Positions 8,694 through 30,410 of a stretch of DNA of 64,000 nt are shown here, in pieces (position 1 is the first letter of the stretch; each line of letters begins with the position of its first letter). Origin of the DNA: Puia dinghuensis (lineage in GTDB: Bacteria; Bacteroidota; Bacteroidia; Chitinophagales; Chitinophagaceae). The notes beneath the pieces were generated by a model, which did not search any database, was not told the origin of the DNA, and was given only the letters and a program-made list of their open reading frames with translations. Location: positions 1 through 64,000 of the forward strand of contig JAMFSL010000036.1 of NCBI GenBank assembly GCA_026225275.1. Direction: 5' to 3'. Position numbers and translations under genes: made by a program.

Positions 8694-8755
8694 ATGCAGA
8701 TAAAGGTAAAGCGCCTTCCCCGTTTTTTCCTTATTTTTAGTAAAAGCCAACTGCT

Positions 8756-14682: not shown

Positions 14683-14745
14683 TTTTTTTTGGCCGGACTA
14701 AGGCAATCGCTTCCCTCGATTGGCTATAAGTACAAATCACTTCCA

Positions 14746-15960
14746 ATGGCCGATCTGCCTTACTCCGAAAAAATCCTCGAATTAGCCGGTAAATGGGCTG
14801 ACGGCACCATCACGGAATCCGAAAAACAAGCAGTCATCGATTGGTACAATCACTTCGATGACAAGGAATTACTATTGTCAAACGAATATGCCCCCCTGAT
14901 GGAAAGGATCGAAAAGGAGATGCTGGCCAATATCCGCTCCCGGATCGCCGCAGAGGCGCCTTCCCCTTCCCTGGAAGAAAAACAACCCGGTATATTATTC
15001 CGCATGAAATCCCGAAGGATGGCGGCCGCCGCTATCCTGGCAGCCATCACTCTTACCGGCGTCTTGCTGTTCACCCACACCAGGTTGACATCAACCCAGG
15101 CCATGGCACAACCAAAACGTTCCGATCTCAACGATATCCAGCCCGGTAGCAACAAAGCCGTACTCACCCTGGCTGACGGAACAACCATTAACCTGGATAG
15201 CGCCCGCACCGGTAACCTGACTAGTCAGGGCACAGCCAAAGTGCTGAAAATACAGGACGGTGAATTGAAATACGATGCCGCCAAAGCGGGCAACCACAGC
15301 AACACCAGCTACAATACGCTTTCTACACCCCGTGGCGGACAATACAGACTCCTCCTGGCCGATGGCACCCGCGTCTGGCTCAACGCAGCCTCTTCCATCC
15401 GCTATCCGACCAGCTTTACAGGCACCGACCGTGAAGTGGAGATCTCCGGCGAAGCTTATTTTGAAGTGGCAAAGAATCCAGCCATGCCCTTTCGTGTGCT
15501 GACCATCGACCACACGGGGGATACCGACCCGATGACCATCGACGTCCTGGGCACTCATTTTAACGTCAACGCCTATAGCGACGAGCCCGTGGCCCGGACA
15601 ACGCTCCTGGAAGGAATGGTGAAAGTCTCGAAAGGAAAGAACACAACGCTACTACAGCCGGGCCAGGCAGCTCAATTGCAGAAAGACGGCGCCATACAGC
15701 GGATATCGCACGCAGATCCCGAAGCTGCCGTAGCCTGGAAAGATGGCCGGTTCGAATTCAGTGATGAAGATCTGCCTGCCATCATGCGGCAGATCTCCCG
15801 CTGGTACGATGTCGATATCGAATATATAGGGGCTGTTCCGACGGATACATTCACCGGCAGCGTGTCCCGGAATACCACACTGTCGGGCGTGCTGAAGATT
15901 CTCAAACTCAGCGACATCAAAGTCTCTGTGTCGGATAACAAGATTATTATCAAATCTTAA
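14746..15960 (+). CDS. FecR-family anti-sigma factor (locus 1)
   Basis: 404 residues from the ATG at 14746 (a TTG at 14689 in frame would add 19 residues not found in the paralogue at 25533). The N-terminal cytoplasmic segment (LELAGKWADGTITESEKQAV) binds the sigma factor. One membrane helix lies at about 90-110 (MAAAAILAAITLTGVLLF). The periplasmic FecR domain (about 170-290) contains STPRGGQYRLLLADGTRVWL and ISGEAYFEVAKNP, and a C-terminal STN-like DUF4974 domain follows (about 335-404; FEFSDEDLPAIMRQISRWYD). It relays the signal from the STN domain of the outer-membrane receptor. 63 bases after the sigma gene. Confidence 0.93.
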   Translation: MADLPYSEKILELAGKWADGTITESEKQAVIDWYNHFDDKELLLSNEYAPLMERIEKEMLANIRSRIAAEAPSPSLEEKQPGILFRMKSRRMAAAAILAAITLTGVLLFTHTRLTSTQAMAQPKRSDLNDIQPGSNKAVLTLADGTTINLDSARTGNLTSQGTAKVLKIQDGELKYDAAKAGNHSNTSYNTLSTPRGGQYRLLLADGTRVWLNAASSIRYPTSFTGTDREVEISGEAYFEVAKNPAMPFRVLTIDHTGDTDPMTIDVLGTHFNVNAYSDEPVARTTLLEGMVKVSKGKNTTLLQPGQAAQLQKDGAIQRISHADPEAAVAWKDGRFEFSDEDLPAIMRQISRWYDVDIEYIGAVPTDTFTGSVSRNTTLSGVLKILKLSDIKVSVSDNKIIIKS

Positions 15961-16109: not shown

Positions 16110-19100
16110 ATGATTTCGACTGCTGTTTGCCAAATCGGGCCGGGAAGCCCATCAAGATCCTATGCCCCTTCCCGGCTATTAACCAAATGCTTGCTCATTA
16201 TGAGAATCACGGTTTTTCTATTGCTTGCCGCCTGTCTGCATGTCTCCGCTAAAGGCTATTCCCAAAAGATCAGCCTATCGGTCCGGGAAACCTCGCTGGA
16301 AAATGTATTCAAGGAAATTCAACGCCAAAGTGGCTATTCTTTCTGGTACAAGACCCGGCAGCTCGACCAGGCTGCCAAAGTTACCCTCGACCTGAAAAAT
16401 GCCAGCCTCGAAGAAGCCTTGCGCCAATGCTTCAAAGATCAGCCCTTCGATTATTTTATCGTCGAACAGAACGTGGTCATCCGGCCCCGCCTCGTAACAA
16501 CGGAAGATATCGCACCTCTCGTGCAGATCAAAGGCAAGGTCACCACGACCGGCGGCAAACCCCTCGGCGGGGTCAGCGTCACCCTCAAATCCACCAGAAA
16601 AGGGACAACGACGGACGAGAACGGTGATTTCTCCATCACCGTACACCGCGGAGACATCCTGGTCATTTCCTATGTCGGCTATGACTCCCGCGAAATAACG
16701 ATCGGCGATCAGGCCGCCCTGGAGATCGCCCTCACCGAATCCAACACCCAGCTCAACGAAATAGCAGTCATCGGTTATGGCCGCGCCAGCCACAAAAGCC
16801 TGACCAGCGCTATCACCACCCTGAAGCCGGAAGACCTCAACGCCGGCGCTATCACCGACGTCGGCCAACTGCTACAGGGTAAGGTGGCCGGCCTCAACAT
16901 CACGGCCAACGGTGACCCCAACCAGACTGCCGCAATCGTTCTCCGCGGAGCCTCTACCATCAATAGTTCCCAGGCGCCCTTTTATGTCATCGATGGAATA
17001 CCCGGCGCGGACATCTCCTTCATCGCCCCGGCAGATATCGTCTCCATCGACGTATTGAAAGACGCCGCAGCCACCGCCATCTATGGCAACCGCGCTTCCA
17101 ACGGCGTCATCATGGTGACCACCCGCAGAGGCAAGCCCGGCGATGCGCAAGTATCTTACAACGGCTATGCCGGCCTTGAAAATGTATCCAGGAACCTCAA
17201 AGTCATGACAGCCCCCCAGCTCCGGGCTTTTCTGACAGCCAATGGCGAGGCATTTTCCCCGAACGATGACCTGGGCGCCAATACCAACTGGCAGAAAGCC
17301 ATCGAAAAGGATAATGCCCTTTCCCAAAGCCATAACGTCGCCATCAGCGGTGGAACAGACCACAGCGATTATATCGCCAGCCTCAACTACGCCTACAAGG
17401 ACGGCATCCTGCTGGCAAGCTCTCTGCAAAGAGTCATCGCCCGCCTCGCCATCGACCAGTCCGCTATCAAAGATAAAGTCAAGCTCGGGCTGAACCTCAC
17501 GTATTCCAACAGTACTTCCGACGACATCCCCTATCGCAGCGTCACCCTCCTGCAGTCGGCCCTGTACCTCCCTGTATCGCCTGTCAAATTACCCAGTGGA
17601 GCCTACTTCGAAGACTTTACCAACACCGGCTATTACAACCCGGTCGCTATGACCAACAACAGTACCCTCAATACGAAGTACAGCAACCTCGTCGGCAACC
17701 TGACAGCACTGGTAAAGCTGCCTTTCTCGCTGACCTATAATATGGACCTCTCTTACCAATCCTATATCACCAACCAGGGTCAATATCTGGATAGTTATTT
17801 CACGGATAACTTTAACGATATGTACAACAACCCCAATCCCGGCTTCGGAGGGCATACCCAACAGGTATTCGGCCAGGGCGGACAAGCGTCCAGGTCTGCT
17901 TACACCAATACCTCTACTCTGTTTGAAGACTATCTGACCTGGGACAAACATTTCGGCGAACACCACATCAACGCAGTGGTAGGATACTCCTGGCAGGATT
18001 TTACCTATGGTGATGGTTTCCAGGTCACCACCGCCAATTTCCCCGTCGATAATATCTCGTATAACAACCTTTCTCTCAGCAACCCTTATGCCTTGAGCGG
18101 CTTCCAGGTAACATTCGGCGCCGATCAACTCTACTACCAGACCCGGCTCATCTCCGATTTTGGGAGGATCACCTATGACTATAATCAGAAATACCTGCTG
18201 CAGGCCTCTCTCAGGCGTGACGGCAGCTCCGTATTCGGGGCCGATCACCAATGGGGCTATTTCCCCTCCGTCGGCGTAGGTTGGCGCATCAGCCAGGAAA
18301 GGTTCATGCTGAACCAAAACCTGTTCACCGACCTCAAACTACGAGGCAGCTACGGCGTCACCGGCAACGCCACGGGCTTTAGCGCCTATACCGCCCAATC
18401 CATCGCCGGCGGCCTCGGCACCTTTTACTACGATGGTACCACCACCTCCGCGCTCGGCGCGACGCAACAGACCAATCCTGACCTTCAATGGGAAACGACC
18501 GCCACTGCGGACATCGGAGTGGATTTTACCCTGCTCAAAGGAATAGTCAGCGGAGCGATAGACGCATATAATAAGACGACTACCAAGATGATCTTTAACT
18601 ACCCGGTGGACGCCATTCTCGCCCCCTCTGGCGCTGTCACGGCCAACGGCGGCAAAATGAACAACAAAGGCATCGAACTGGCCCTTAGCGTAACGCCCGT
18701 AGCTACCAAAGCCTTCAAGTGGACCAGCAGCCTCAACCTGGCGCACAATACCAACAAGATCATAAGTCTCAAAAACCCGCTGTTCACCGGCGGCGACTCC
18801 CTCCTCCTGGCCGACCCCGAAGGCGCAGGCCAGTCCGGCAGCACGGTCGAGATCCTCAAATCCGGCAAACCCCTGGGACAGTTCTTCTCCCTCGAATATG
18901 CCGGGCAAAACGCCAGCGGCGTCTCTCAATACGTGTCCGCAACCGGCAAGCTGACGACTACGCCTACCCAGGGGGTGGATTATCACTACCTCAGCAACGC
19001 ACAACCGAAACTCCTGCTGGGCTGGGCCAATAACTTCAGGTACCAGAAATTCGACCTGAATATCTTCGTCCGCGGCACCTTCGGCAACCATATCTTCAAT

Positions 19101-19454
19101 GCCACCCGGGCTGACCTCTTCCGCCCCGCAACGGCACAATATGACAATATTTTAGAAGACGCGGCCCATGAAACCACGGCGGATTACAACTCTTACCTGT
19201 ATTCCTCCCGCTTCATCGAGAGTGGCAGCTACCTGCGCCTGGACAATGCCTCGTTGGGTTACACCCTGCGGAATGTGGGCGAATATGTCAAATCCCTCAG
19301 GATCTATGTGACGGGAAATAACCTGTTCGTCATCACGGGATACCGCGGCATCGATCCCGAGGTCAACCAGGGCGGAAACGCACCGGGAGTAGACTATAAT
19401 AATTTCTATCCCAAAACCCGCACCTTCCTGCTCGGCGCAAACATCTCTTTCTAA
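16110..19454 (+). CDS. SusC/RagA-type TonB-dependent receptor with STN domain (locus 1)
   Basis: 1114 residues. A long polar leader (about 30 residues) precedes the signal peptide core MRITVFLLLAACLHVSA; the paralogue at 26860 has the same arrangement, supporting this ATG. Next comes an STN signalling domain (about 50-125), a carboxypeptidase-regulatory-like domain (about 138-215, QIKGKVTTTGGKPLGGVSV), a TonB plug (about 225-345, with YVIDGIPG and SNGVIMVTTRRGK) and a 22-strand barrel ending in Phe (LLGANISF). It imports oligosaccharides with its SusD partner, energised by TonB. The STN domain links occupancy to FecR and the ECF sigma upstream. The SusD gene follows at 25 bases. Confidence 0.95.
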   Translation: MISTAVCQIGPGSPSRSYAPSRLLTKCLLIMRITVFLLLAACLHVSAKGYSQKISLSVRETSLENVFKEIQRQSGYSFWYKTRQLDQAAKVTLDLKNASLEEALRQCFKDQPFDYFIVEQNVVIRPRLVTTEDIAPLVQIKGKVTTTGGKPLGGVSVTLKSTRKGTTTDENGDFSITVHRGDILVISYVGYDSREITIGDQAALEIALTESNTQLNEIAVIGYGRASHKSLTSAITTLKPEDLNAGAITDVGQLLQGKVAGLNITANGDPNQTAAIVLRGASTINSSQAPFYVIDGIPGADISFIAPADIVSIDVLKDAAATAIYGNRASNGVIMVTTRRGKPGDAQVSYNGYAGLENVSRNLKVMTAPQLRAFLTANGEAFSPNDDLGANTNWQKAIEKDNALSQSHNVAISGGTDHSDYIASLNYAYKDGILLASSLQRVIARLAIDQSAIKDKVKLGLNLTYSNSTSDDIPYRSVTLLQSALYLPVSPVKLPSGAYFEDFTNTGYYNPVAMTNNSTLNTKYSNLVGNLTALVKLPFSLTYNMDLSYQSYITNQGQYLDSYFTDNFNDMYNNPNPGFGGHTQQVFGQGGQASRSAYTNTSTLFEDYLTWDKHFGEHHINAVVGYSWQDFTYGDGFQVTTANFPVDNISYNNLSLSNPYALSGFQVTFGADQLYYQTRLISDFGRITYDYNQKYLLQASLRRDGSSVFGADHQWGYFPSVGVGWRISQERFMLNQNLFTDLKLRGSYGVTGNATGFSAYTAQSIAGGLGTFYYDGTTTSALGATQQTNPDLQWETTATADIGVDFTLLKGIVSGAIDAYNKTTTKMIFNYPVDAILAPSGAVTANGGKMNNKGIELALSVTPVATKAFKWTSSLNLAHNTNKIISLKNPLFTGGDSLLLADPEGAGQSGSTVEILKSGKPLGQFFSLEYAGQNASGVSQYVSATGKLTTTPTQGVDYHYLSNAQPKLLLGWANNFRYQKFDLNIFVRGTFGNHIFNATRADLFRPATAQYDNILEDAAHETTADYNSYLYSSRFIESGSYLRLDNASLGYTLRNVGEYVKSLRIYVTGNNLFVITGYRGIDPEVNQGGNAPGVDYNNFYPKTRTFLLGANISF

Positions 19455-19478
19455 CGCAAAACTGTAAAAAGCAGCATC

Positions 19479-21104
19479 ATGAAAAAAACATTCAACTATA
19501 TGATCATGGCAGGACTGCTGACAGGCATGTTCTGTTCCTGTCACAAGCTCAGTATACCGATCACCTCCGAGCTCACCCCCAATGTCTTCCCGCAGGACTC
19601 CGCTCAATTCATCCAGGCGGAAGGACCGGCCTATGTAGCGCTGCGGGGCAGCTACGGCGTGGAATATTTCTTCATGCAGACCCTCAGCACCGATGAAGAG
19701 ATCCTCCCGGCCCGCGGTGGTAACTGGTTCAACTCGGGAGAAAACCAGCAATTGCACTACCATTCCTGGAACAGCGGGAATGCCTATATGGAAAGCATGT
19801 GGAGCTGGACATCCACCATCATCGGCCTGGCTACACAGGAGATGGCGCTGCTCAACGAAGATGAGCCCGCCACCACCGCCTCCAAATCGACCAGCATCGC
19901 AGAACTGCGCACCGTCCGCGCCTTTGCCTATTTGATGATGATGGATTTATTCGGCAGCGTGCCCATCGATACCGTCGCCGGCAGTTTCGTATCGCAGCCG
20001 CAGTCGCCACGGGCTACTGTAGCCGCCTTTATCGAATCGGAAGTCAAAGCGGCCCTCCCTTATCTCAGCTCTACCGTCGACATCACCACCTACGGCCGCG
20101 CGACTAAATATACGGCATACGCCTTGCTGGCCAAGCTGTACCTGAATGACGAATACTATACGGGGGGGACGGCACGCTGGAACGATTGCATCGCCGCCTG
20201 TGACAGCGTCATCAATTCCGGCCTCTTCACCTTACAACCGATGTCCACCTATTTTCAGCAGTTTGCCTACAACAACGGCCCGCAGGACCAGGAATTTATT
20301 TTTGCCATCCCGGAAAATCCCACCTTCGCCGATGGGCCCTGGGGCTTCCGCGGCACGAACCTCCACCAACGGTATGACCTGCCCCGCTCTGAAAAAGCGA
20401 AATATGACCTTAGCTTCGTGCCCAGCGCACCGGAGAGCACTATTCCCAGCTACTACGCCTATTTCTACGACCCGAATGATGTGCGGAACAACCAATGGCT
20501 GACCGGACTTCAGTATATGAAAGACGGAGTGACACCCGTAACGGTCACCACCACTAACCTCGGGTATAACCAGTTCTACACCGGTTCCGATCCCTCCGGC
20601 GTCTATACCTACCAGGTCAATATGACACCCGATATCATCCTGCGGCAGGATGTCGCCTCATTCGACTGCGGAAATGACGAGATCGCCTGGAACATGGGCT
20701 ACCGTTGTGCCAAGTTCTACCCGGACTCTACTTCCCCAAGTACGGCAATGAATAACGATATCCCTGTATTCAGATATTCTGACATCCTGCTGATGAAGGC
20801 GGAAGCGATCCTGAGAGGCGGAACGCCCACCCTCAGTCAGACCGCGCTTTCCCTGGCTAACGAATTGCGTGCCGCACGCACCACTTCGGCAGCCTGGACA
20901 ACTGTTACCCTCGATTCCATCTACAACGAACGATGCAGAGAGTTCACCCAGGAATCCTGGCATCGGAATGATATGATCAGGTTCGGATTGTATGAAGGTG
21001 CCTGGGGATTCAAGACGGATGCAAACCCTCAGCATGAGATCTATCCAATCCCTTTCACCGCATTGCAGTTGAACACCAAATTAGTCCAGAATCCTGGCTA
21101 CTAA
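19479..21104 (+). CDS. SusD/RagB-family glycan-binding lipoprotein (locus 1)
   Basis: 541 residues. A lipoprotein signal peptide ends at Cys19 or Cys21 (GMFCSC). The family pattern follows: N-terminal region with ALRGSYGVEYFF, the tetratricopeptide-like helices (RTVRAFAYLMMMDLFGSVPI, AKLYLNDEYY), the YSDILLMKAEAILRGG motif (about 430) and a C-terminal end NPGY. It caps the SusC barrel on the cell surface and presents the glycan. The start is 25 bases after SusC, so the two are co-transcribed, and a strong terminator follows at 21119. Confidence 0.95.
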   Translation: MKKTFNYMIMAGLLTGMFCSCHKLSIPITSELTPNVFPQDSAQFIQAEGPAYVALRGSYGVEYFFMQTLSTDEEILPARGGNWFNSGENQQLHYHSWNSGNAYMESMWSWTSTIIGLATQEMALLNEDEPATTASKSTSIAELRTVRAFAYLMMMDLFGSVPIDTVAGSFVSQPQSPRATVAAFIESEVKAALPYLSSTVDITTYGRATKYTAYALLAKLYLNDEYYTGGTARWNDCIAACDSVINSGLFTLQPMSTYFQQFAYNNGPQDQEFIFAIPENPTFADGPWGFRGTNLHQRYDLPRSEKAKYDLSFVPSAPESTIPSYYAYFYDPNDVRNNQWLTGLQYMKDGVTPVTVTTTNLGYNQFYTGSDPSGVYTYQVNMTPDIILRQDVASFDCGNDEIAWNMGYRCAKFYPDSTSPSTAMNNDIPVFRYSDILLMKAEAILRGGTPTLSQTALSLANELRAARTTSAAWTTVTLDSIYNERCREFTQESWHRNDMIRFGLYEGAWGFKTDANPQHEIYPIPFTALQLNTKLVQNPGY

Positions 21105-21118
21105 ACTTTTGATAAGCC

Positions 21119-21152
21119 AACCCCGGGGAAAAGATCCCCGGGGTTTTTTTTT
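21119..21152 (+). terminator. Rho-independent terminator after SusD 1
   Basis: A 10-base stem AACCCCGGGG / CCCCGGGGTT with a short A-rich loop, extended by one A-T pair and followed by nine Ts (21144-21152). It is the clearest intrinsic terminator in the window. It ends the sigma-FecR-SusC-SusD unit and separates it from the glycosidase gene 12 bases downstream. Confidence 0.9.
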
Positions 21153-21163
21153 CGATAATTTGC

Positions 21164-24100
21164 ATGGGTAAACCCGCCAATATGTTCCGTTTCTTCCTCC
21201 CGTTCCTCCTCGTCATCTCTCTTGCCGTTCACGCGCAGCAGGCCTCCTACGACCTCATCCGCCGCATCCTGCCCGACCACGCCAGCTCCTTCCTCATTGA
21301 AAACCTCCCTCCCTCAGCCGGCAAAGACAGCTTCGAACTGGAAAGTCGCGGCGGAAAAATTATCCTGCGCGCCAATAATGGCGTCGCCATCGCCTCCGCC
21401 TTGTACTATTATCTGAAAACTTATTGCCATTGTCAGATCACCTGGAATGGCGCCAACCTCCGGCTTCCCACCCCACTCCCGGCCATCACAGGCACTATCG
21501 GCAAAAAATCTCCCTACGCCGACCGCTATTACCTCAACTACTGCACCTTCAATTACAGCATGAGTTGGTGGGACTGGCCCCGGTGGGAAAAAGAGATCGA
21601 CTGGATGGCCCTCCATGGCATCAATATGCCGTTGGCGATCACCGGTGAAGAATATACCTGGGACGTCGTCTATAAAGAAATGGGCTTCTCGGACACAGAA
21701 TTGAATGCCTTCTTTTCAGGCCCCGCTTATTTTGCCTGGCTTTGGATGGGCAATCTCGACGCTTGGGGTGGGCCCCTCCCCCAACATTGGATGACCAGCC
21801 ACCGCGACCTGCAGCTGCGTATCCTCGAAAGAGAAAGGGCCCTGGGCATGACCCCTGTCCTCCCCGCCTTCACAGGCCACGTACCTCCCGGTTTTCAACA
21901 GCATTTCCCAAAAGCCAAACTCAAACGAATCAACTGGACAAACGGCTTCGCCGACACCTATATCCTCGATTCTCAGGATCCTCTATTCTCTGCAATAGGT
22001 AAAAAATTCCTGGAGGTGCAGACCCGACTGTTCGGCACGAATCATCTCTACTCCGCAGACACCTTTAATGAAAACGAGCCCCCCTCCGACGATCCCGCCT
22101 TCTTGACCGCACTGACCCGGCGGGTGTACGAAGGCATGCACCAGGTAGATACCGCAGCTACATGGGTCATGCAGGGCTGGCTATTCTATAACGATCGAAA
22201 GTTCTGGAAGACCCCACAGATCAAAGCCCTGCTGGATGCGGTGCCCGGCGATCACCTGCTGTTACTCGACCTCGCCGCCGAAATAGAGCCCATCTGGAAA
22301 CGGACGCATGCCTTCGATGGCAAACCCTGGATCTGGAATATGATCAATAATTTCGGCGGAAACGTCAACCTCTTCGGCCGCATGGACACCGTCGCCACCA
22401 GCCCGGCCCTCGCCCTGCACGACCCGACCTCCGGAAAAATGGCAGGCATCGGGCTGACGATGGAAGCCATCGCTCAGAACCCTGTCATCTACGAACTCAT
22501 GATGGACAATGCCTGGCAGTCCCGGCCGATTGACCTCGATGCATGGCTCCGCACCTATGTCCGCAATCGCTATGGCTTGGACAGCAAAGACCTGCTCGAG
22601 GCCTGGCAGATCCTCCGCCGCACAGCCTACACCGGCCGCGACATCCGCGACGGCGCCGAGTCGATCCTCACCGGACGCCCCACCTTCGACTCTACTACGA
22701 CCTGGACCCAAACGAAGCTCAACTATCCCCCGCATGATCTCCTGCCCGCATGGGACCTGTTCATCCACACCGCAACCACCGCCACATCCGCTGCGTCCGC
22801 AAGCACACCCACCGTATCCACCAGCACGCCGCCGGCATCTCCCACCGACGGCTTTCTTTTCGACCTCACCGACCTCACCCGCCAGGTCCTCGCCAACTAC
22901 GCAGATGAATTGCAAAAGAAATGGGTCACCGCCTTCCGCACCCACGACACCGCCGAATTCACGCTGTATAGCACTCAATTCATCACGCTCATAGATGACC
23001 TCGACCGCCTCCTCGCCACCCGCCGCGACTTCCTCCTCGGCCCCTGGATCGCCGAAGCCAGAAAATGCGGCATCACCAACGCGGAAAAAGATCTTTATGA
23101 AAGAAATGCCCGCGACCTGATCACGCTATGGGGCGACGCCGACAACCCCTTACATGAATACGCAAACCACCAGTGGAGCGGATTGCTCACAGGTTTCTAT
23201 AAACCACGCTGGCAGAAATTCTTCGCCCTACTCCACCAATCCCTCGAACGAAACACCCCTCCCGACCTCGCCGGCTTCGAAAAAAACATCCGCGCCTGGG
23301 AATGGCACTGGGTCAATGAACATCAATCTTACCCGACAACGCCCACGGGCGATAGCAGACAAATCGCACTCCAACTATACCATAAGTACCGTCAATCCCT
23401 ATTCGCCATTGACATCACTTCCCTCGGCGCCAAAGGCGACGCCCAAACCATGAACACCACCTTCATCCAACATGCGATCGACAGCATAGCGGCAAAAGGC
23501 GGCGGCATGGTACTCGTACCCGCCGGCAAATTCGTCACCGGCCCGCTTCACATGCGCTCAGGCGTAGAATTACACCTGGAGGATAGCGCATTTCTCCTGG
23601 CCACTACCAGCCGAATCGACTATGGCAGGGATCGCGCATCAGCCCTTATTCAGGCCGATGACCAGCATGATATCTCCATCACCGGCAATGGCGTCATCGA
23701 CGGCCGCGGCCGCGAAGTCGTGGCAGACCTCTACCGGCTGCTGAAAGAAGGAACCCTGCAGGACTCGGAATGGCAACATGAAAATCCCTGGCATCAAAAA
23801 AGGCCGAACGAATCCAACCGGCCCGGCATCATCGACTTCATATACTGCAACAACGTAAATATCACCGGCATCACCCTTAAAGATGCCGCCTGCTGGGTAC
23901 AAACCTATACCGAATGCACCCACCTTAGCCTGGAGAAGATGAAGGTTCAAAGCAACGCTTACTGGAACAATGACGGCATCGATATCGTCGACTGCCAGGA
24001 TGTTCGGGTCACCGGCTGTAACGTCAACGCCGATGACGATGGGATCTGCCTGAAATCCAGCAACGGCGCCAGCCGCTGCGACAAGGTAGTCATTGAAAAT

Positions 24101-24805
24101 TGTAAAATTCGTTCCAGCGCAAACGGCATCAAATTCGGCACCGCCTCCCATGGCGGATTCAGCAACGTAACGATCCGTTATAACACCGTCTACGATACCT
24201 ATCGCTCTGCCATCGCCCTCGAATCCGTCGATGGTGGCACCATCGAAAACGTACAGGTGCAGGACCTCACCGCCTGGAATACCGGCAACGCTATCTTTAT
24301 CCGCCTGGGCCATAGGCAGAAGATCTATACCCCGGGCATCATCCGCCATGTGACGATCCGTGACGTAAAAGTGGAAGTGCCTGCTGACAAACCGGACAAA
24401 GGTTATGAGATGGAAGGTACTGTCCTCTCGTATCCGCACAACGAATTTCCCTCCTCGATCGTAGGCCTGCCCGGTCATCCCGTGGAAGATGTCACATTGG
24501 AAAATATACAGATTTTATATCGGGGAAAAGACGATTCTACCGTCGCCAGATTTGGCCTGGATAGCATTGAAAAAGTGCCCGAAAACGAATCCGGCTACCC
24601 GGAGTATTCTATGTTTGGCGAATTGCCCGCCTGGGGTTTCTATGTGCGTCACGCAAAAGATATCCACTTTCACAACGTCTCCCTTCACCATGCACACCAA
24701 AGCTTTCGACCCGCAGCCATCTTCGACGACGTTCAAAACCTAACCCTCGACCACCTCGACGCCCCCGATGAAAAACCCGTCCCAAAATTCATCCATGTCC
24801 ACTGA
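21164..24805 (+). CDS. Two-domain glycosidase: GH89 alpha-N-acetylglucosaminidase fused to GH28 polygalacturonase-like enzyme
   Basis: 1213 residues. A signal peptide (MFRFFLPFLLVISLAVHAQQ) starts at a second ATG, 21182, which may be the real start. Residues about 25-745 match NAGLU/GH89: an N-terminal alpha/beta domain, the barrel segment DRYYLNYCTFNYSMSWWDWP, the acid/base Glu in YSADTFNENEPP (about 302), the nucleophile Glu in GLTMEAIAQNP (about 431), and a helical C-terminal domain. From about 750 (ITSLGAKGDAQTMNTTFIQH) a right-handed beta-helix of GH28 begins, with NNDGIDIVD (about 935), DDDGICLKS (about 956), ASHGG (about 995) and RLGHR (about 1046). These retain the three catalytic Asp, the His and a basic residue. 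A Thr/Ser/Pro/Ala-rich insertion lies at about 535-560. One open frame, no frameshift seen. It probably acts in the periplasm on products imported by the upstream SusCD. Confidence 0.88.
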   Translation: MGKPANMFRFFLPFLLVISLAVHAQQASYDLIRRILPDHASSFLIENLPPSAGKDSFELESRGGKIILRANNGVAIASALYYYLKTYCHCQITWNGANLRLPTPLPAITGTIGKKSPYADRYYLNYCTFNYSMSWWDWPRWEKEIDWMALHGINMPLAITGEEYTWDVVYKEMGFSDTELNAFFSGPAYFAWLWMGNLDAWGGPLPQHWMTSHRDLQLRILERERALGMTPVLPAFTGHVPPGFQQHFPKAKLKRINWTNGFADTYILDSQDPLFSAIGKKFLEVQTRLFGTNHLYSADTFNENEPPSDDPAFLTALTRRVYEGMHQVDTAATWVMQGWLFYNDRKFWKTPQIKALLDAVPGDHLLLLDLAAEIEPIWKRTHAFDGKPWIWNMINNFGGNVNLFGRMDTVATSPALALHDPTSGKMAGIGLTMEAIAQNPVIYELMMDNAWQSRPIDLDAWLRTYVRNRYGLDSKDLLEAWQILRRTAYTGRDIRDGAESILTGRPTFDSTTTWTQTKLNYPPHDLLPAWDLFIHTATTATSAASASTPTVSTSTPPASPTDGFLFDLTDLTRQVLANYADELQKKWVTAFRTHDTAEFTLYSTQFITLIDDLDRLLATRRDFLLGPWIAEARKCGITNAEKDLYERNARDLITLWGDADNPLHEYANHQWSGLLTGFYKPRWQKFFALLHQSLERNTPPDLAGFEKNIRAWEWHWVNEHQSYPTTPTGDSRQIALQLYHKYRQSLFAIDITSLGAKGDAQTMNTTFIQHAIDSIAAKGGGMVLVPAGKFVTGPLHMRSGVELHLEDSAFLLATTSRIDYGRDRASALIQADDQHDISITGNGVIDGRGREVVADLYRLLKEGTLQDSEWQHENPWHQKRPNESNRPGIIDFIYCNNVNITGITLKDAACWVQTYTECTHLSLEKMKVQSNAYWNNDGIDIVDCQDVRVTGCNVNADDDGICLKSSNGASRCDKVVIENCKIRSSANGIKFGTASHGGFSNVTIRYNTVYDTYRSAIALESVDGGTIENVQVQDLTAWNTGNAIFIRLGHRQKIYTPGIIRHVTIRDVKVEVPADKPDKGYEMEGTVLSYPHNEFPSSIVGLPGHPVEDVTLENIQILYRGKDDSTVARFGLDSIEKVPENESGYPEYSMFGELPAWGFYVRHAKDIHFHNVSLHHAHQSFRPAAIFDDVQNLTLDHLDAPDEKPVPKFIHVH

Positions 24806-24878: not shown

Positions 24879-25457
24879 TTGCTCCCGTCATTATCTTCAT
24901 ATTCCGATCAGGAACTCATCCGCTTGATGAAACAAGATGAGGAGAGCGCATTTACCGCACTCTACAACCGCTATTGGGAAAAGCTCCTCTTCATTGCCGG
25001 CATAAAACTCAGAGACCTCGCCATCGCCGAAGAACTCGTCCAGGACATCTTCCTCGACCTTTGGAACCGCCGCGACCGGCTTGATATCTCCGGAGAACTG
25101 AGCCATTACCTCGCCACCTGCATGAAATATAAGGTGATCAATGCTCAGGCTAAACGCAAAAGGGCACAAGACTATGCCCAACTCACCGCTGCCCGCCTTG
25201 ACAGGGCGGATGAAAGCACCGATCACTGGCTGCAATTCGAAGATCTCAGACATCAACTCGCCAAATTGGTAGCCGGCCTCCCCGAAAAATGCCGCCTCAC
25301 CTATCAATTAAGTAGGGAGCAGGGGCTCTCCCAAAAAGAAATCGCCCATCGCCTCCGGGTCTCGGAAAAGGCGGTCGAAGGCAACCTCTCCCGTGCCCTG
25401 CGTGCGCTCCGCACCGGCCTCTCTCATCTCCAGATCTTCCTTCTCTTTTGGCTATAG
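24879..25457 (+). CDS. RNA polymerase ECF sigma factor (locus 2)
   Basis: 192 residues with sigma region 2 (SAFTALYNRYWEKLLF to LVQDIFLDLWNRRD) and region 4 (LPEKCRLTYQLSREQGLSQK, SEKAVEGNLSRALRALR). Like its paralogue at 14092, it starts with TTG (24879) and no nearby in-frame ATG offers an alternative. It ends in a hydrophobic tail (LQIFLLFWL). It heads the second FecR/SusC/SusD locus and should direct transcription of the receptor operon when released by FecR. A TATATTTA (24844-24851) upstream resembles a Bacteroidota -7 element with one mismatch. Confidence 0.9.
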   Translation: MLPSLSSYSDQELIRLMKQDEESAFTALYNRYWEKLLFIAGIKLRDLAIAEELVQDIFLDLWNRRDRLDISGELSHYLATCMKYKVINAQAKRKRAQDYAQLTAARLDRADESTDHWLQFEDLRHQLAKLVAGLPEKCRLTYQLSREQGLSQKEIAHRLRVSEKAVEGNLSRALRALRTGLSHLQIFLLFWL

Positions 25458-25460
25458 CCC

Positions 25461-25477
25461 GTTAAAAATATTTTAAC
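25461..25477. repeat. AT-rich inverted repeat between sigma 2 and FecR 2
   Basis: GTTAAAA ATA TTTTAAC, a perfect 7-base inverted repeat 3 bases after the sigma factor stop. It is AT-only apart from the ends and has no T-run, so it is a weak terminator at best and could be a regulatory site. Confidence 0.45.
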
Positions 25478-25532
25478 CCGGATATAGGGATTCGCCATTC
25501 CCAATTGCCTCTACTATATAAACAGGCACCAC

Positions 25533-26711
25533 ATGGCAGAACACCCGGACAAGTATTACCTGGAACTGGCAGAAAAATGGCTGCTCGGCACGATCACTCC
25601 CGACGAGATGCAGGAGTACGCCCGCTGGTACAATAGCATCGAGCCGGATGCCACCCTCGACATCCCTGCTTCGATCGCCGGCAACACCGAAGCCTACCGG
25701 TTACAACTCCTGCAAAAGATCAACGCCCGGCGCCTCGCCTCCCGCGAATCCGGTCTGCATCGACGAATGCTCATTCGCCGCTCCTCATGGGCCGCCGCAG
25801 CCATCCTGATCCTTCTGATGACCAGCCTCTATTATCAAAGGACCCTTCATCTGCCCGCACCAGCCATAAGCCAGAAAACCACCGTTCCATCGAAAGACTT
25901 CCCGGCAGGCACTAACCGCGCCATCCTTACCCTCGCCGGTGGCCGTACCATTGACCTCGACAGCGCTACCAACGGCACGCTGGCCCGGCAAGGCAACAGC
26001 AAAGTGCAAAAGCTCATGAATGGCCAGTTGTCTTACCTGCCCACGCATGATGTGACCTCCGCACCGCCAACCTTAAATACCCTGGCCACACCCAGAGGGG
26101 GACAATATAAGCTGCTACTCTCGGACGGAACAGTCGTCTGGCTCAACGCCGCCTCTTCCATTACGTATCCAACCACCTTCACCGGGAAAGATCGCTCCGT
26201 TGTCATCACGGGGGAAGTCTATTTCGAGGTGGCCAAAGACAAAAACAAGGACTTCATGGTCTTCGTCGGATCGCCCCGGGGTATGGCAGTGGACGTACTA
26301 GGCACAGAATTCAATATCAATGCTTATGAAGATGAAGGAGTGATCAGGACCACCTTGCTGAGCGGCAAGGTTAAGGTCCACGAAGGCGACCTCTCCGCAC
26401 TGCTCACCCCGGGACAGCAGGCTCAGGCTATCCGGAATGGCCCCCTGACGATCGCCCCACAGGTCAATTCCGAAGAAGTAATGGCTTGGAAGAATGGCCT
26501 CTTCCAATTCGAAGATGCCGACATCCGCTCTGTCATGCGCCAGCTCGCCCGCTGGTATGATGTAGAAGTCTCTTACGAAGGCCATGTCACCGAAGACCGG
26601 TTCGCCGGCAAGCTCCCCAGGGAAAACAGCGCCGCTGCAACCCTGCATATCCTTGAAAAAAATCAGGTTCACTTCCGTATCGAAGACAAAAAGATTATTG
26701 TCATGCCTTAA
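25533..26711 (+). CDS. FecR-family anti-sigma factor (locus 2)
   Basis: 392 residues, ATG start. Cytoplasmic sigma-binding segment (YYLELAEKWLLGTITPDEMQ), a membrane helix at about 88-105 (WAAAAILILLMTSLYY), a periplasmic FecR domain with ATPRGGQYKLLLSDGTVVWL and ITGEVYFEVAKDK, and a C-terminal DUF4974 domain (FQFEDADIRSVMRQLARWYD) that should contact the STN domain of the receptor. It aligns along its whole length with the FecR at 14746, so the loci are paralogous. It starts 75 bases after the sigma gene. Confidence 0.93.
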   Translation: MAEHPDKYYLELAEKWLLGTITPDEMQEYARWYNSIEPDATLDIPASIAGNTEAYRLQLLQKINARRLASRESGLHRRMLIRRSSWAAAAILILLMTSLYYQRTLHLPAPAISQKTTVPSKDFPAGTNRAILTLAGGRTIDLDSATNGTLARQGNSKVQKLMNGQLSYLPTHDVTSAPPTLNTLATPRGGQYKLLLSDGTVVWLNAASSITYPTTFTGKDRSVVITGEVYFEVAKDKNKDFMVFVGSPRGMAVDVLGTEFNINAYEDEGVIRTTLLSGKVKVHEGDLSALLTPGQQAQAIRNGPLTIAPQVNSEEVMAWKNGLFQFEDADIRSVMRQLARWYDVEVSYEGHVTEDRFAGKLPRENSAAATLHILEKNQVHFRIEDKKIIVMP

Positions 26712-26824
26712 AAAACGACACTATGCCATAAGAAACATCCACCGGGATACCCCGATAAAAAAGCCAGAAATGCAACGAACATCTCTGGCCGGCATCCGGG
26801 CATCTCATAAAAAAGTCGGCTAAG

Positions 26825-26846
26825 ACTGCTTATTCAATCACCCAAA
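26825..26846 (+). promoter_or_regulatory. Shared element upstream of SusC 2
   Basis: ACTGCTTATT (26825-26834), five bases, then ACCCAAA (26840-26846), 13 bases before the ATG at 26860. This is the same element as at 16076-16096. The rest of the two upstream gaps is largely unlike, apart from a CTA a few bases upstream and a TTATG at the start codon. Confidence 0.55.
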
Positions 26847-26859
26847 CGCCTGTAAAGTT

Positions 26860-29800
26860 ATGCAATTCAGACCTCATTCCCCACTGTGGGGATTACACAG
26901 CCTGCGTGTGTCTACCAAAACCCTGTTAATCATGAAAATGTACATTGTGCTATTGACGATGACTTGCTTACAGGTAAGCGCCAGGGGCCTCTCGCAGAAC
27001 GTTACCATCGATGTGACCGACGCCCCGCTGTCGGCCGTTTTCAAGTCCATCGAACGGCAAACCTCGTTTATTTTCTTCTACAAGCCCGCCCTGCTTCGCG
27101 AAGGCCGCAAAGTCACCCTCCATACCAAAGACGTACCGGTCAAACAAGTGCTCGATGAATGCTTCAAAGACCAGCCCTTCGTGTACTACGAGGAAGACCG
27201 CATCATCACCATCCAACCCAAAGGGCCGCCTGCGGCGAACCCCGCACCCGGCGACCAGGATAAACTGGCGGCCATACCAATCCACGGTAAGGTGACGGAT
27301 AGCAGCGGCGTGGCCATCGCCGGCGTCAGCGTCCGGATCAAAGGCTCGAAAGCCGGCACAATCACCGACGACGACGGCAAATTCACCCTTAACGTAAAAA
27401 AGGGCGACGTCCTGCTGTTCAGCTCACTAGGCTATGAAAGCCGCCAGGTCACCATCGGTAACGATGAAAGCCTGACTATCTCGCTGATCAAAAGTCCCCA
27501 GCAACTGACCTCCGTCGTGGTCACCGCCCTCGGCATCAAACGCGAAGCCCGGTCCTTGGGTTACGCCACGGCACAGATCGACAACAAAGACCTGAATTCC
27601 TCTCAACCTGTCAATATCGCAAACGGCATCACCGGCAAGGTCTCGGGCATGGACATCGCCCAGACGAACAGTGGCGTCGATCCCGACAATGTCCGCATCA
27701 CCCTCCGGGGTAACCGCTCCTTCCTCGGCAATAACGAACCTCTGCTTGTCGTAGACGGTATTCCGGTGGATATCTCCTACCTCGCCCAGATCAATTCGGC
27801 CGATATCGTTAGCGTCAATATCCTTAAGGGCGCTACCGCCGCCGCCCTCTATGGCAGCAATGCAGCCAATGGGGTGATGATCGTCAATACCCGCACCGGC
27901 AGCAAACGGCCCGTTGTCCAATATACCTCTACGGTCACCCTGGACAAAGTTTCGTTCCTTCCAAAAATGCAGGAGTCGTTTGGTTCCGCCTCTAACGAAT
28001 TTACCGCTATCGATGCTCTTTCATACTCGAATCCTACCAATAACCAGAACGGATTCGTCCCATTCGAAAATCAGGCCTTCGGTTCCCCCTTCGCCAACGG
28101 CTCCCCCTTCGGCGGTGACTCGATCGTACTGGGTTTCCCGGGACCGGATGGCCAGATCCAGAAAATACCTTATAAAGCCGATCCCAATGGCATCCGCGAC
28201 TTCTGGAAGACAGGTGTGACGGTCCGCAATGGCGTGTCCTATTCCCAGGGCGATGAAGACAATACGTTCTTCATCTCTGGCGAGAACATCGAACGCTCGG
28301 GCATCGTCCCCAAAGACCATTTCGCCCGCACCACCTTCCGGATGAACGCATCTAAAAAATTCGGAATTTTCAAGGCTACAGGCAACGTCAGCTACGGTGA
28401 ATCCGATCTCGACCAGACTGCCGCCCTCGGCTCCTTCTATTCCAGCATCCAGAACACCGCCCCCGAAGTACCGCTAACGAACTACCAGAATATCACCGCC
28501 GTATTCAGTGACTTGAATACTTATTTCAATGCCTATGCGGTGAACCCGTACTGGTTCATCAATAACGAAAGGCATACCCGCAATCGTAAAGACCTGCTCG
28601 CCAGCGGCGACCTTTCTCTGGACGCGCTCAAATGGCTGAATATAGACTTCCAGGGTGGTGTCGAAAATTACAATTATACTGAACAGACCGCCGTCGCCGG
28701 CTATGAATTCTCCGCCTATGGCCTGTTCCTGGGCAACACGGCCAATGACCTCAGCGGCAACCAGGCGACCTATTTCGCTAATGTTCCCCCCACCGTCACC
28801 TCGGATGATGTCAACAACAGCGAACTATACACGAACCTGAAGATCAACCTGCATCATCATTTCGGGAATTTCGGCACGCAGTTGATCCTGGGTAATTCCA
28901 TTCAACAGATAAATTATAATTATCTGCAGAACGGCTCTACCACCCTGCTCAATGTCCCCAACTTGTACAATGTTGCCTTCCGCTCCGGTATCCCTTCGGT
29001 GACGCAGACGCAATCTCTCAGCCGCCAGTATGGCAACTATGCCGACCTTAGCATCGACTATAAGAACTTCCTTTTCCTCCACGCCAGCGGCCGCCAGGAC
29101 AAGACCTCCCTCCTGGATGAAAGTGACCGAACCTTTTTCTATCCCGGATTCGACGTCTCCGCCGTCTTGAGCGATATCATTGGCGCGCTAAAGGAAAGTA
29201 AAGTCATTTCCTATCTGAAAATAAGAGGCGGTATCACGAAGACCGGCAACGTCAACATTGGTCCCTACCAGGTCCAGAATACCTACAGCATCGGCAACAA
29301 TTTCCCCTTCGGGCAGACCGCCGGGTTGACCACCTCCGGCATCTATGCCAAACAGAACCTCAAGCCGGAATTCACCAATTCTAGCGAAGTAGGCGCCGAA
29401 TTAGGCTTCCTGCAGAATAGAATCACTCTTAAGGGAACATACTTCTATGAAAAGACGACCGACGAGACAGTGCCCGTACAGGTATCGAACGCTACCGGCT
29501 ACAGTACCTACCTCGAGAATCTCGGTCGCATGGATAACTCCGGTGAGGAAATTGACCTCAATGGCGACATCCTTCGACTACCTAATGGCCTTCGCTGGAA
29601 TGTCGGCGTCAATTTCACCCACTATCACAACGTCGTAAGAAACCTGGGCCCCGTCAATTCCCTTGCCATCCCCAATTCCAATCCCGTCAACAATTCCAAT
29701 GCTTACGCCGTAGTAGGTCAGCCCTACCCTGTACTACAGGTGACGGACTGGGCGAAAGATCCGCAAGGTCAGGTCATCGTGAATGCCAACACCGGCCTGC

Positions 29801-30390
29801 CGCAGCAATCCGCAACGCTCGTCAATTACGGCCCTTCCAATCCTACCCGGGCACTCGGTATCAATACCACGATCTCCTATAAGGGATTCACATTTTCGGC
29901 AGTGGCCGAATACCGCGGCGGCAATGTGATCTATAATGGTGTCGGTACTGCGCTGGAAGTGAACGGACTGTCGCAACGGTCCGCGATGTTCAACCGGCAA
30001 CGCTTTGTTTACCCCAATTCTGTCATCCAGACGGCACAGGGGACTTACGTTCCCAATACCAACGTTACGGTCAACGATGGCGGCCTGGGATTCTGGGGCA
30101 TCTACGGCTATTTCCCTGAGTCGATGTATGTCACCAGCGCAGCCTTCTGGACGCTCCGCAACGCCAGCCTGTCCTACGACCTTCCCCAACGCCTGATCAG
30201 TCACATCAATCCTGTAAAGGCCGTGTCGATTGGGATACTGGGCTCCAACCTGCTGCTCCTGGTCCCTAAGCAGAATACCTGGACGGATCCTGAATTCAGC
30301 GAAGACACCGGAAATGCGACGGGTACGAACAGCACGAACCAGGCGCCTCCTACCCGCACCTTTGGCGCAAATCTCAAGGTCACTTTTTAA
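26860..30390 (+). CDS. SusC/RagA-type TonB-dependent receptor with STN domain (locus 2)
   Basis: 1176 residues. Long polar leader then signal core (LLIMKMYIVLLTMTCLQVSA), STN domain (about 46-120, VTIDVTDAPLSAVFKSIERQ), carboxypeptidase-regulatory-like domain (about 143-220, IHGKVTDSSGVAIAGVSVRI), plug (about 230-345, LVVDGIPVDISY, AANGVMIVNTRTG), then the barrel ending FGANLKVTF. Function as for the paralogue at 16110: TonB-driven import with SusD and signal transfer to FecR. It differs in sequence across the barrel, so a different ligand is expected. The SusD-like gene follows at 20 bases. Confidence 0.95.
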   Translation: MQFRPHSPLWGLHSLRVSTKTLLIMKMYIVLLTMTCLQVSARGLSQNVTIDVTDAPLSAVFKSIERQTSFIFFYKPALLREGRKVTLHTKDVPVKQVLDECFKDQPFVYYEEDRIITIQPKGPPAANPAPGDQDKLAAIPIHGKVTDSSGVAIAGVSVRIKGSKAGTITDDDGKFTLNVKKGDVLLFSSLGYESRQVTIGNDESLTISLIKSPQQLTSVVVTALGIKREARSLGYATAQIDNKDLNSSQPVNIANGITGKVSGMDIAQTNSGVDPDNVRITLRGNRSFLGNNEPLLVVDGIPVDISYLAQINSADIVSVNILKGATAAALYGSNAANGVMIVNTRTGSKRPVVQYTSTVTLDKVSFLPKMQESFGSASNEFTAIDALSYSNPTNNQNGFVPFENQAFGSPFANGSPFGGDSIVLGFPGPDGQIQKIPYKADPNGIRDFWKTGVTVRNGVSYSQGDEDNTFFISGENIERSGIVPKDHFARTTFRMNASKKFGIFKATGNVSYGESDLDQTAALGSFYSSIQNTAPEVPLTNYQNITAVFSDLNTYFNAYAVNPYWFINNERHTRNRKDLLASGDLSLDALKWLNIDFQGGVENYNYTEQTAVAGYEFSAYGLFLGNTANDLSGNQATYFANVPPTVTSDDVNNSELYTNLKINLHHHFGNFGTQLILGNSIQQINYNYLQNGSTTLLNVPNLYNVAFRSGIPSVTQTQSLSRQYGNYADLSIDYKNFLFLHASGRQDKTSLLDESDRTFFYPGFDVSAVLSDIIGALKESKVISYLKIRGGITKTGNVNIGPYQVQNTYSIGNNFPFGQTAGLTTSGIYAKQNLKPEFTNSSEVGAELGFLQNRITLKGTYFYEKTTDETVPVQVSNATGYSTYLENLGRMDNSGEEIDLNGDILRLPNGLRWNVGVNFTHYHNVVRNLGPVNSLAIPNSNPVNNSNAYAVVGQPYPVLQVTDWAKDPQGQVIVNANTGLPQQSATLVNYGPSNPTRALGINTTISYKGFTFSAVAEYRGGNVIYNGVGTALEVNGLSQRSAMFNRQRFVYPNSVIQTAQGTYVPNTNVTVNDGGLGFWGIYGYFPESMYVTSAAFWTLRNASLSYDLPQRLISHINPVKAVSIGILGSNLLLLVPKQNTWTDPEFSEDTGNATGTNSTNQAPPTRTFGANLKVTF

Positions 30391-30410
30391 AACCTTTAAA
30401 CGATCAAAGC

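Follow-up and report, generated by a model that had tools for sequence, protein, structure and literature searches.

A predicted GH89-GH28 fusion enzyme behind a SusC/SusD pair in Puia dinghuensis, with a tentative link to inositol-linked glycans

In a 64,000-nucleotide stretch of Puia dinghuensis DNA (the window), we found that a GH89 alpha-N-acetylglucosaminidase domain and a GH28 domain are encoded in a single open frame, as a preliminary description of this DNA had claimed, and both domains score above the Pfam cut-offs. The explanation that we consider probable is one exported protein with two exo-glycosidases, GH89 and an unusual GH28, born of the loss of a NagX-like gene. Two catalytic domains within one continuous frame are the layout of a multicatalytic CAZyme, and by its predicted domains the window protein is an enzyme of this known kind, with a testable substrate idea.

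The fusion gene and its locus

The fusion gene lies directly behind genes for a FecR-type anti-sigma factor, SusC and SusD, and no other gene separates these from the next regulator (Table 1). The SusC and SusD genes are adjacent on the same strand (16110-21104), as expected of a polysaccharide utilization locus (PUL). The window SusD is 93% identical to the SusD beside a separate GH89 gene in the closest relative, G301, and the hairpin stem between SusD and the next gene is the same in that genome. The SusC copy of G301 is split over two frames.

Table 1. Features of the fusion gene and its locus (window positions)
Feature	Position	Strand	Basis
FecR-type anti-sigma factor	14689..15960	+	Pfam FecR and FecR_C above cut-off; same place in G301, 76% identity
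SusC-like TonB-dependent transporter	16110..19454	+	Pfam plug, barrel and STN; G301 copy 90% identical
SusD-like glycan-binding lipoprotein	19479..21104	+	Pfam SusD_RagB and SusD-like_3
Terminator-like hairpin between SusD and fusion gene	21119..21153	+	11-bp stem, 8 GC pairs, T run
GH89-GH28 fusion gene	21164..24805	+	Open frame, 1213 aa; 1207 aa from probable true start at 21182
N-terminal signal peptide	21182..21235	+	Residues 7-24, read by eye
GH89 alpha-N-acetylglucosaminidase half, Glu303 and Glu434	21239..23386	+	Residues 26-741; Pfam, PDB alignment
Junction (~7 residues), the proposed site of the deletion	23387..23407	+	Comparison with G301
GH28 beta-helix half	23408..24775	+	Residues ~749-1204; Pfam, alignment, predicted model

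The first ATG of the fusion gene is ACG in G301 and the second is conserved, so we take the second as the probable start. Besides the signal peptide that follows, no other was seen in the fusion, the GH28 half having none of its own; the product is probably one exported protein, presumably periplasmic. When the domain search proposed in the preliminary description was run, the protein matched NAGLU_N (residues 26-107), NAGLU (121-452, E = 1e-143), NAGLU_C (461-741) and GH28 (783-1125, E = 2e-18), all four above curated cut-offs. The join is tight, as NAGLU_C ends at residue 741 and the beta-helix begins at about 749. CE15-GH8 of Bacteroides eggerthii is a multicatalytic PUL enzyme that likewise has two catalytic domains and a very short linker in one PUL-encoded chain, although its families differ from those of the window fusion and the other enzymes of its PUL act on xylan (PMC8417218).

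Origin of the fusion from separate genes

In G301 the order is SusC-SusD-GH89-NagX-like-GH28, with every gene separate; its GH89 and GH28 are 79% and 73% identical to the window halves, and a NagX-like protein of 396 aa is encoded between them. NagX belongs to a family of membrane glucosamine N-acetyltransferases. Against the NF046061 equivalog cut-off of 480 bits, the genes of G301, L098 and L130 score 356.9, 325.4 and 370.1 bits, and for this reason we call them NagX-like only. Judged from the comparison with G301, the window fusion is derived from separate genes. An in-frame deletion of some 1.2 kb in a GH89-NagX-GH28 stretch would have removed both the NagX-like gene and the signal peptide of GH28, and it is likely that this happened as a single event.

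A search for the same fusion in other genomes, which had been recommended, found a second GH89-GH28 fusion in locus L156; this one ends at the contig end, with the GH89 catalytic domain outside the visible sequence. Its sister G318 has the same three-gene order with a NagX-like gene between. In the GH28 tree, the window groups with G301 (SH-aLRT 99) and the L156 fusion with G318 (98), indicating two separate fusions, each with a sister that has a NagX-like gene between. Even if the substrate proposed below is wrong, neighbouring operon genes clearly fused twice here, with the same intervening gene lost each time. We rejected G311 as a further fusion: one 1266-aa frame had been reported there, and a TAA at L080 13231-13233 divides it into two genes in the same frame.

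The window assembly is a draft of 365 contigs and the genes are separate in the closest relative, as would be seen if an assembly error had dropped a NagX-like gene. However, the join is in frame and at domain borders, and because an independent fusion exists in L156 and the window's own genome holds no close NagX-like copy (best match 53%, in another context), we regard such an artefact as very improbable. Of two observations that the preliminary description would jointly count against the fusion, relatives with separate genes do exist, and a collapsed deletion is unlikely. Its statement that no enzyme with this layout was known to have been described agrees with our literature search of titles and the starts of abstracts, in which no GH89-GH28 enzyme was found; the layout itself is not unique, given the L156 fusion and other GH89 fusions in the genus. 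GH89 in other relatives is joined to GH35, GH92, GH20, GH123, GH29 or an esterase. The GH89-GH35(-GH92-LamG) fusions found in this genome and elsewhere in the genus (L003, L088-L091) resemble the window fusion in having an N-terminal GH89 followed by another enzyme; the partners differ, and the copy in the window's own genome is 55% identical in GH89.

Across 294 genomes of the family, GH89 is present in 52, this GH28 in 63 and both in 32 (odds ratio 10.9, p = 1e-12, with relatedness ignored). For 20 of the 80 GH28 loci, the stretch that was fetched also contains GH89, fused in one case; of 11 genus stretches that hold GH89 from this clade, only 3 have GH28 closely after it on the same strand.

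Predicted activities of the two halves

The GH89 half has the NAGLU fold and both catalytic Glu regions that had been described for it: three domains are present, and in an alignment with human NAGLU (4xwh) Glu303 falls on chain position 293 (counted by hand) and Glu434 on 423, which we take to be E316 and E446 on the assumption that the chain starts at residue 24. The three-domain layout and both Glu residues are common to 4xwh, the Clostridium-type 2vc9 and the window GH89; unlike the other two, the window protein carries a second enzyme at its C-terminus. We predict that this half is an exo-acting alpha-N-acetylglucosaminidase, and its activity is likely.

The GH28 half scores 67 bits against a Pfam cut-off of 22.9, and its predicted model (pLDDT 88) has as best solved matches the GH28 exo-enzymes 3jur and 5olp. 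Of the Asp, His and basic motifs attributed to it earlier, only the first is there: the catalytic residues Asp937, Asp958 and Asp959 are unchanged in all 20 sequences aligned. In the alignment, Ala986 occupies the place of the active-site His of polygalacturonases, and the R and K of the carboxylate-binding RIK motif are Ala1018 and Glu1020. An SHGG string was rejected as the GHG motif. The relatives of the window GH28 also lack both; the loss of His and RIK is subfamily-wide, and the residues that replace them are conserved. We suggest that this half acts as an exo-alpha-uronidase and belongs to a GH28 subfamily with a +1 site unsuited to galacturonate.

The replaced His and RIK could also mean that activity was lost and that one half is a passive module for binding or stability, with a single half catalytic. 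This is improbable, as the Asp residues and the replacements Arg1014, Glu1020 and Asp1023 are all invariant (20 of 20), and omega is low for both halves (0.125-0.147, each half against its relative, over a span that includes time before the fusion). An alignment that combined fusion, GH89 and GH28 sequences in 40 rows was dropped, as its invariant columns mix both halves. There is a good chance that both halves are active. SusC/SusD would import an oligosaccharide ending in alpha-GlcNAc, GH89 would remove the terminal alpha-GlcNAc, and GH28 would then remove the uronic acid that this presumably exposes.

Candidate substrates

Both suggestions of the preliminary description, a glycan with both residues or an unusual GH28 specificity, fit the evidence. 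The best NCBIfam model for the GH28 half is the BT4146 rhamnogalacturonidase (NF049898), at 258.5 bits against an equivalog cut-off of 500. The beta-helix and an LE(T/S)VDG string in the RIK stretch are common to the window GH28 and the BT4146 type (the string in 5 of 5 sequences above the cut-off); in contrast, the catalytic stretch is NNDGID rather than DRDGFD or NRDGVD, and the window GH28 is joined to GH89. The likeness, together with KduI/KduD and GH51 near L105-L108 and a GH78-type rhamnosidase in the window (6369-8753, minus strand), would suit an RG-I-like pectin or a microbial polysaccharide with alpha-GlcNAc near alpha-GalA, cut by a rhamnogalacturonidase-like GH28. We consider this substrate unlikely. 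GH105, GH106 and pectin lyase were absent among the neighbours scanned, which were a part of all neighbours, and a plain pectinase is disfavoured because His and RIK are missing and because links to MIOX, iol and NagX genes would go unexplained.

These links come from the clusters of relatives, in which genes for GH92, a symporter, phosphoesterases and enzymes that use inositol occur as well. L098 has a one-strand operon MIOX-SusC-SusD-NagX-SSF-GH89-GH28-GH92, and L132 (Mucilaginibacter) one of SusC-SusD-GH89-NagX-GH28-SSF-MIOX-GH92. A complete iol set lies between GH89 and GH28 in L109, further sets occur in L099, L161, L189 and L222, and a metallophosphoesterase is found in 8 of 123 loci. 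When homologues of the window SusD were scored for MIOX or iolD within 15 kb, we found one or the other beside 13 of 16 at ≥55% identity, 10 of 17 at 48-54%, none of 17 at 39-47% and none of 79 at 30-38%, as well as 7 of 8 split SusD hits. The close homologues thus differ from the most distant (23/33 versus 0/79, p = 2e-16) and from all more distant ones (0/96).

Based on the cluster contents and SusD counts, our bold reading is a glycan linked to inositol, with the head groups of plant or fungal glycosyl inositol phosphorylceramide (GIPC) as the most likely candidate; MIOX in L132 and the family-wide SusD test raised it and lowered pectin, and we hold it tentatively, at somewhat less than an even chance. 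GH92 and other enzymes would trim outer sugars, NagX would acetylate glucosamine, GH89 would remove GlcNAc, an unusual GH28 would cut the uronic acid off inositol, and the inositol would be used through MIOX or the iol pathway. We know of no GH28 that acts on glucuronate, and uronosyl-inositol activity would, to our knowledge, be new for the family. GIPCs are described as more abundant than any other sphingolipids in plants and fungi, and GIPC-type sugars are Man, GlcN, Ara, GlcA and GlcNAc (PMC8366399).

Several observations weigh against an inositol-linked glycan. The window locus has no inositol-using gene, and genome G000 lacks iolD and has its MIOX on another contig, away from SusC/SusD. 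MIOX is widespread, with 84 of the 294 genomes carrying it, and neither iol nor MIOX is present in most of the 80 GH28 loci. In the stretches sampled for the G190 and G077 iol operons, GH89, GH28 and a close SusD are all absent. By genome, iolD occurs with GH28 in 8 of 16 (p = 0.009) and with GH89 in 5 of 16 (p = 0.17). KduI/KduD and GH51 accompany some clusters as in pectin loci, and SusC/SusD could serve another inositol compound.

The pairing of a NagX-like gene with GH89 in the relatives resembles the HGSNAT-NAGLU step of heparan sulfate breakdown and bacterial NagX; in contrast, the window lineage lost its NagX-like gene here and has GH28 directly after GH89 (PMC9007349). A heparan-type substrate, raised by this pairing, was rejected, as GH92, GH28 and the inositol genes do not fit.

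The fusion acts as a Rosetta stone that ties this GH28 subfamily to GH89 and, through the relatives' clusters, to NagX-like genes, GH92 and inositol use. With slightly less confidence than for the substrate itself, we propose that SusC/SusD with GH89-GH28 may be a locus type for glycosyl inositol (phosphate) head groups, in which a GH28 subfamily became a uronosyl-inositol hydrolase, two lineages independently dropped the acetyltransferase and fused the glycosidases, and the inositol goes to MIOX or iol. If the substrate is GIPC, these clusters would supply enzymes and a pathway for its breakdown; a literature search for GIPC combined with PULs or glycoside hydrolases returned no paper. An inositol-linked glycan is compatible with the two-glycosidase explanation.

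Architecture of the GH89-GH28 protein

The preliminary description had reported one chain carrying a GH89 and a GH28 enzyme, and this is true: the gene is a single frame with all its Pfam domains over cut-off (see table). Pfam also confirmed the SusC, SusD and FecR genes upstream. By phmmer, human NAGLU (4xwh) matched fusion residues 32-743 (E 4e-170) and the exo-galacturonosidase 3jur matched residues 749-1069. The two catalytic Glu of the GH89 half are Glu303 and Glu434, whose human NAGLU counterparts we take to be E316 and E446. Translation probably starts at the ATG at 21182, because it is the sole start ATG kept in the closest relative. Read by eye, the fusion has an N-terminal signal peptide; the GH28 half has none of its own, so it would leave the cytoplasm solely as part of the fusion.

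An AlphaFold2 model of the GH28 half (residues 738-1213; 20-row input alignment) had a mean pLDDT of 88 and a pTM of 0.89, and its top solved-structure matches (3jur, 5olp and 2uve) are all GH28 enzymes. Asp937, Asp958, Asp959, Arg1014, Glu1020 and Asp1023 are invariant (20/20 rows). In profile alignments, Ala986 aligns with the active-site His of 5olp, and Ala1018 and Glu1020 align with the R and K of the 3jur RIK motif, at what we take to be the positions of these motifs within the two structures. With these residues at the motif positions, the His and basic motifs that the preliminary description had placed in the GH28 half are absent, both in the fusion and in the aligned relatives, and that part of the description is corrected here. 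It is natural to infer that the +1 site would not be meant for galacturonate.

The best NCBIfam model for this half is BT4146 rhamnogalacturonidase, at 258.5 bits, below the cut-off of 500. Five genus-relative sequences over that cut-off share LE(T/S)VDG with it (LALE in four, LDLE in one), but these five carry DRDGFD or NRDGVD at the place of NNDGID in the window's GH28 subfamily. A passage of PMC8002723 names BT4146 as a GH28 rhamnogalacturonidase of RG-I breakdown.

Positions of the fusion gene, its domains, nearby window features and other fusions
Feature	Position or locus	Detail
GH89-GH28 gene	window 21164-24805 (+)	single frame, 1213 aa
NAGLU_N	residues 26-107	Pfam, over cut-off
NAGLU	residues 121-452	Pfam, over cut-off
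NAGLU_C	residues 461-741	Pfam, over cut-off
GH28	residues 783-1125	Pfam, over cut-off
GH78-type alpha-L-rhamnosidase	window 6369-8753 (-)	upstream, opposite strand
Terminator-like hairpin	window 21119-21153	SusD / enzyme gene interval
Same hairpin in G301	L078 about 6863-6833	loop inverted (AAAAGAT vs ATCTTTT)
ECF sigma factor, FecR-like gene (by place), SusC, SusD	window 24879-31973	second set, after fusion gene
SusC of G301	L078:8545-11965 (-)	split over two overlapping frames
GH89-GH35	L003:9243-13742	window's genome, contig C195; its second GH89; runs off contig end
GH89-GH35-GH92-LamG	L088, L089, L090	genus relatives; about 2700 aa
GH89-GH35	L091	genus relative
GH89-GH20	L092, L093	genus relatives
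GH20-GH89	L095	genus relative
GH89-GH123	L094	genus relative
GH89-GH123	L033	family
GH89-GH29	L034	family
GH89-esterase	L035, L036	family
GH89-GH123	L125	elsewhere in phylum
Exo_endo_phos-GH89	L127:1418-4282 (-)	elsewhere in phylum; Exo_endo_phos in front
GH97, then BT4146-type GH28	L209:1-2889 (+)	genus relative
GH97, then BT4146-type GH28	L210:1480-4314 (-)	genus relative
Sulfatase-GH28	L103:6063-9296 (-)
GH28-FAD oxidoreductase	L104:7552-10992 (+)

Origin and recurrence of the fusion

In the closest relative, G301 (same genus; contig C449, L078), we found FecR, SusC, SusD, GH89, a 396-aa membrane protein and GH28 on one strand, with identities to the window of 76% (FecR), 90% (SusC), 93% (SusD), 79% (GH89) and 73% (GH28). 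The split of its SusC is either a frameshift or a draft error. The membrane protein matches DUF5009 and scores 356.9 bits against NagX, below the cut-off of 480; part of PMC9007349 describes human HGSNAT as a distant relative of NagX. The G301 GH89 ends ...LYQKYRQPISAAYE-stop and its GH28 opens with a signal peptide followed by LDITTLGAKGDGQT; across the junction, the window fusion reads LYHKYRQSLFAIDITSLGAKGDAQT. A single in-frame deletion of ~1.2 kb would explain the fusion from a G301-like order. NagX-like matches in the window's genome are only 53, 36 and 34% identical and lie on other contigs.

A search for the same fusion in other genomes, as the preliminary description had suggested, found one, in L156 (MAG SZAS-43), among at least 80 GH28 loci taken from the species collection; Pfam confirmed NAGLU_C and GH28 in its frame, and the contig breaks off before it reaches the catalytic domain of GH89. 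In a GH28 tree (103 rows, quick method), the window groups with G301 (SH-aLRT 99) and L156 groups with G318 (SH-aLRT 98), in different clades. The gene order in G318 is GH89, a middle protein and GH28; the middle protein has no Pfam hit but shares 69% identity with its G301 counterpart. These separate clades, each with a three-gene sister, show that the fusion arose on two or more occasions, in both cases next to a lineage in which a NagX-like gene separates GH89 from GH28. GH89-GH28 is a derived state, reached twice by joining neighbours in an operon.

We sought further fusions in 33 genus, 294 family and 395 phylum genomes. Both halves occur in one uninterrupted frame nowhere in the genus genomes besides the window. 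In the family genomes, the window's was the only GH89-GH28 among six GH89 frames of at least 1000 aa, and two other GH28 frames of that length, from the best five candidates per genome, were not GH89-GH28; nor were three frames of 955-1302 aa from the phylum. A genus candidate, G311 (L080), was ruled out by the TAA at 13231-13233 that alone separates its same-frame GH89 and GH28.

The pairing is not universal in the genus: GH28 lies ≤1.2 kb behind GH89 on the same strand in 3/11 genus stretches with GH89 of the window's clade (L078-L081, L083-L085, L087, L096, L112, L113). Among the family genomes, GH89 is present in 52/294, GH28 of this subfamily (threshold E 1e-60) in 63/294 and both in 32 (odds 10.9, p 1e-12, ignoring relatedness). 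Pairwise omega, which includes pre-fusion time and is rough because dS exceeds 1 in 3/5 comparisons, was 0.147 (GH89), 0.144 (GH28) and 0.112 (SusD) for the window versus G301, and 0.125 and 0.146 for L156 versus G318.

Inositol genes and the candidate substrate

NagX-like, SSF symporter and GH92 genes are neighbours in other lineages; within the fetched stretches of the GH28 loci, GH89 occurs in 20/80, GH92 in 30/80 and NagX-like genes in 23/80. A calcineurin-type phosphoesterase is found in 8/123 loci, and L105-L108 and L129 carry GDPD, KduI and KduD with glycerol kinase.

Myo-inositol oxygenase (MIOX) converts inositol to glucuronate. L132 (Mucilaginibacter) reads SusC-SusD-GH89-NagX-like-GH28-SSF-MIOX-GH92 (MIOX 350 bits), and L098 reads MIOX-SusC-SusD-NagX-like-SSF-GH89-GH28-GH92-GH28; MIOX-SusC-SusD loci include these two, L236 and L237. 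MIOX is present in 84/294 family genomes. The L132 MIOX as a BLAST query matched in 8/129 stretches, so most GH28 loci have no MIOX within reach. In L109, a myo-inositol operon lies between GH89 and GH28 (score/cut-off: IolB 320/205 bits, IolC 372/300, IolD 916/715, IolG 419/355, MMSDH-type IolA 549/449; IolE 211/290, below), with a class II aldolase that received no Iol name, followed by a melibiase-type gene. Parts of the set occur in L099, L161, L189 and L168, the last on the same contig as L109 by length and sequence, and L222 reads SusC-SusD-iolJBCDAEG, then melibiase, GH29 and GH28. iolD was found in 16/294 family genomes; it lies ≤15 kb from this GH28 in three and from a close SusD homologue in four (one split hit), six genomes altogether.

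SusD homologues at least 55% identical to the window's lie ≤15 kb from MIOX or iolD in 13/16 cases (10 MIOX, 3 iolD), as do 10/17 at 48-54% and 7/8 split hits. At 39-47% (0/17) and 30-38% (0/79), none lies within 15 kb of either. The comparison of 23/33 versus 0/79 gives p 2e-16, ignoring relatedness, and MIOX and iolD are never both within 15 kb of one homologue. An inositol compound is the target suggested by this SusCD lineage, and GlcN(Ac), Man, Ara and a uronic acid are the sugars suggested by GH89, GH92, GH51, the NagX-like gene and the unusual GH28. In glycosyl inositol phosphorylceramides (GIPC), GlcN(Ac) is linked alpha to GlcA. A section of PMC8366399 lists Man, GlcN, Ara, GlcA and GlcNAc as GIPC-type sugars, and one of PMC6743777 describes GlcA attached to inositol phosphorylceramide.

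A pectin-like or microbial glycan is also a possible substrate. The window locus carries no inositol genes and either lost them or never had them. iolD was not found in the window's genome in the search of the 294 family genomes, and its one MIOX is on contig C276, with no SusC or SusD there. A GIPC-type glycan matches the gene set better than pectin does. We infer the function of the fusion protein from sequence, and an inositol-glycan substrate is a bold but testable proposal.

GH89 is also fused to other partners (see table), and the window layout belongs to a recurrent kind of GH89 fusion. One such partner, Exo_endo_phos, is a family that includes sphingomyelinase-like enzymes.
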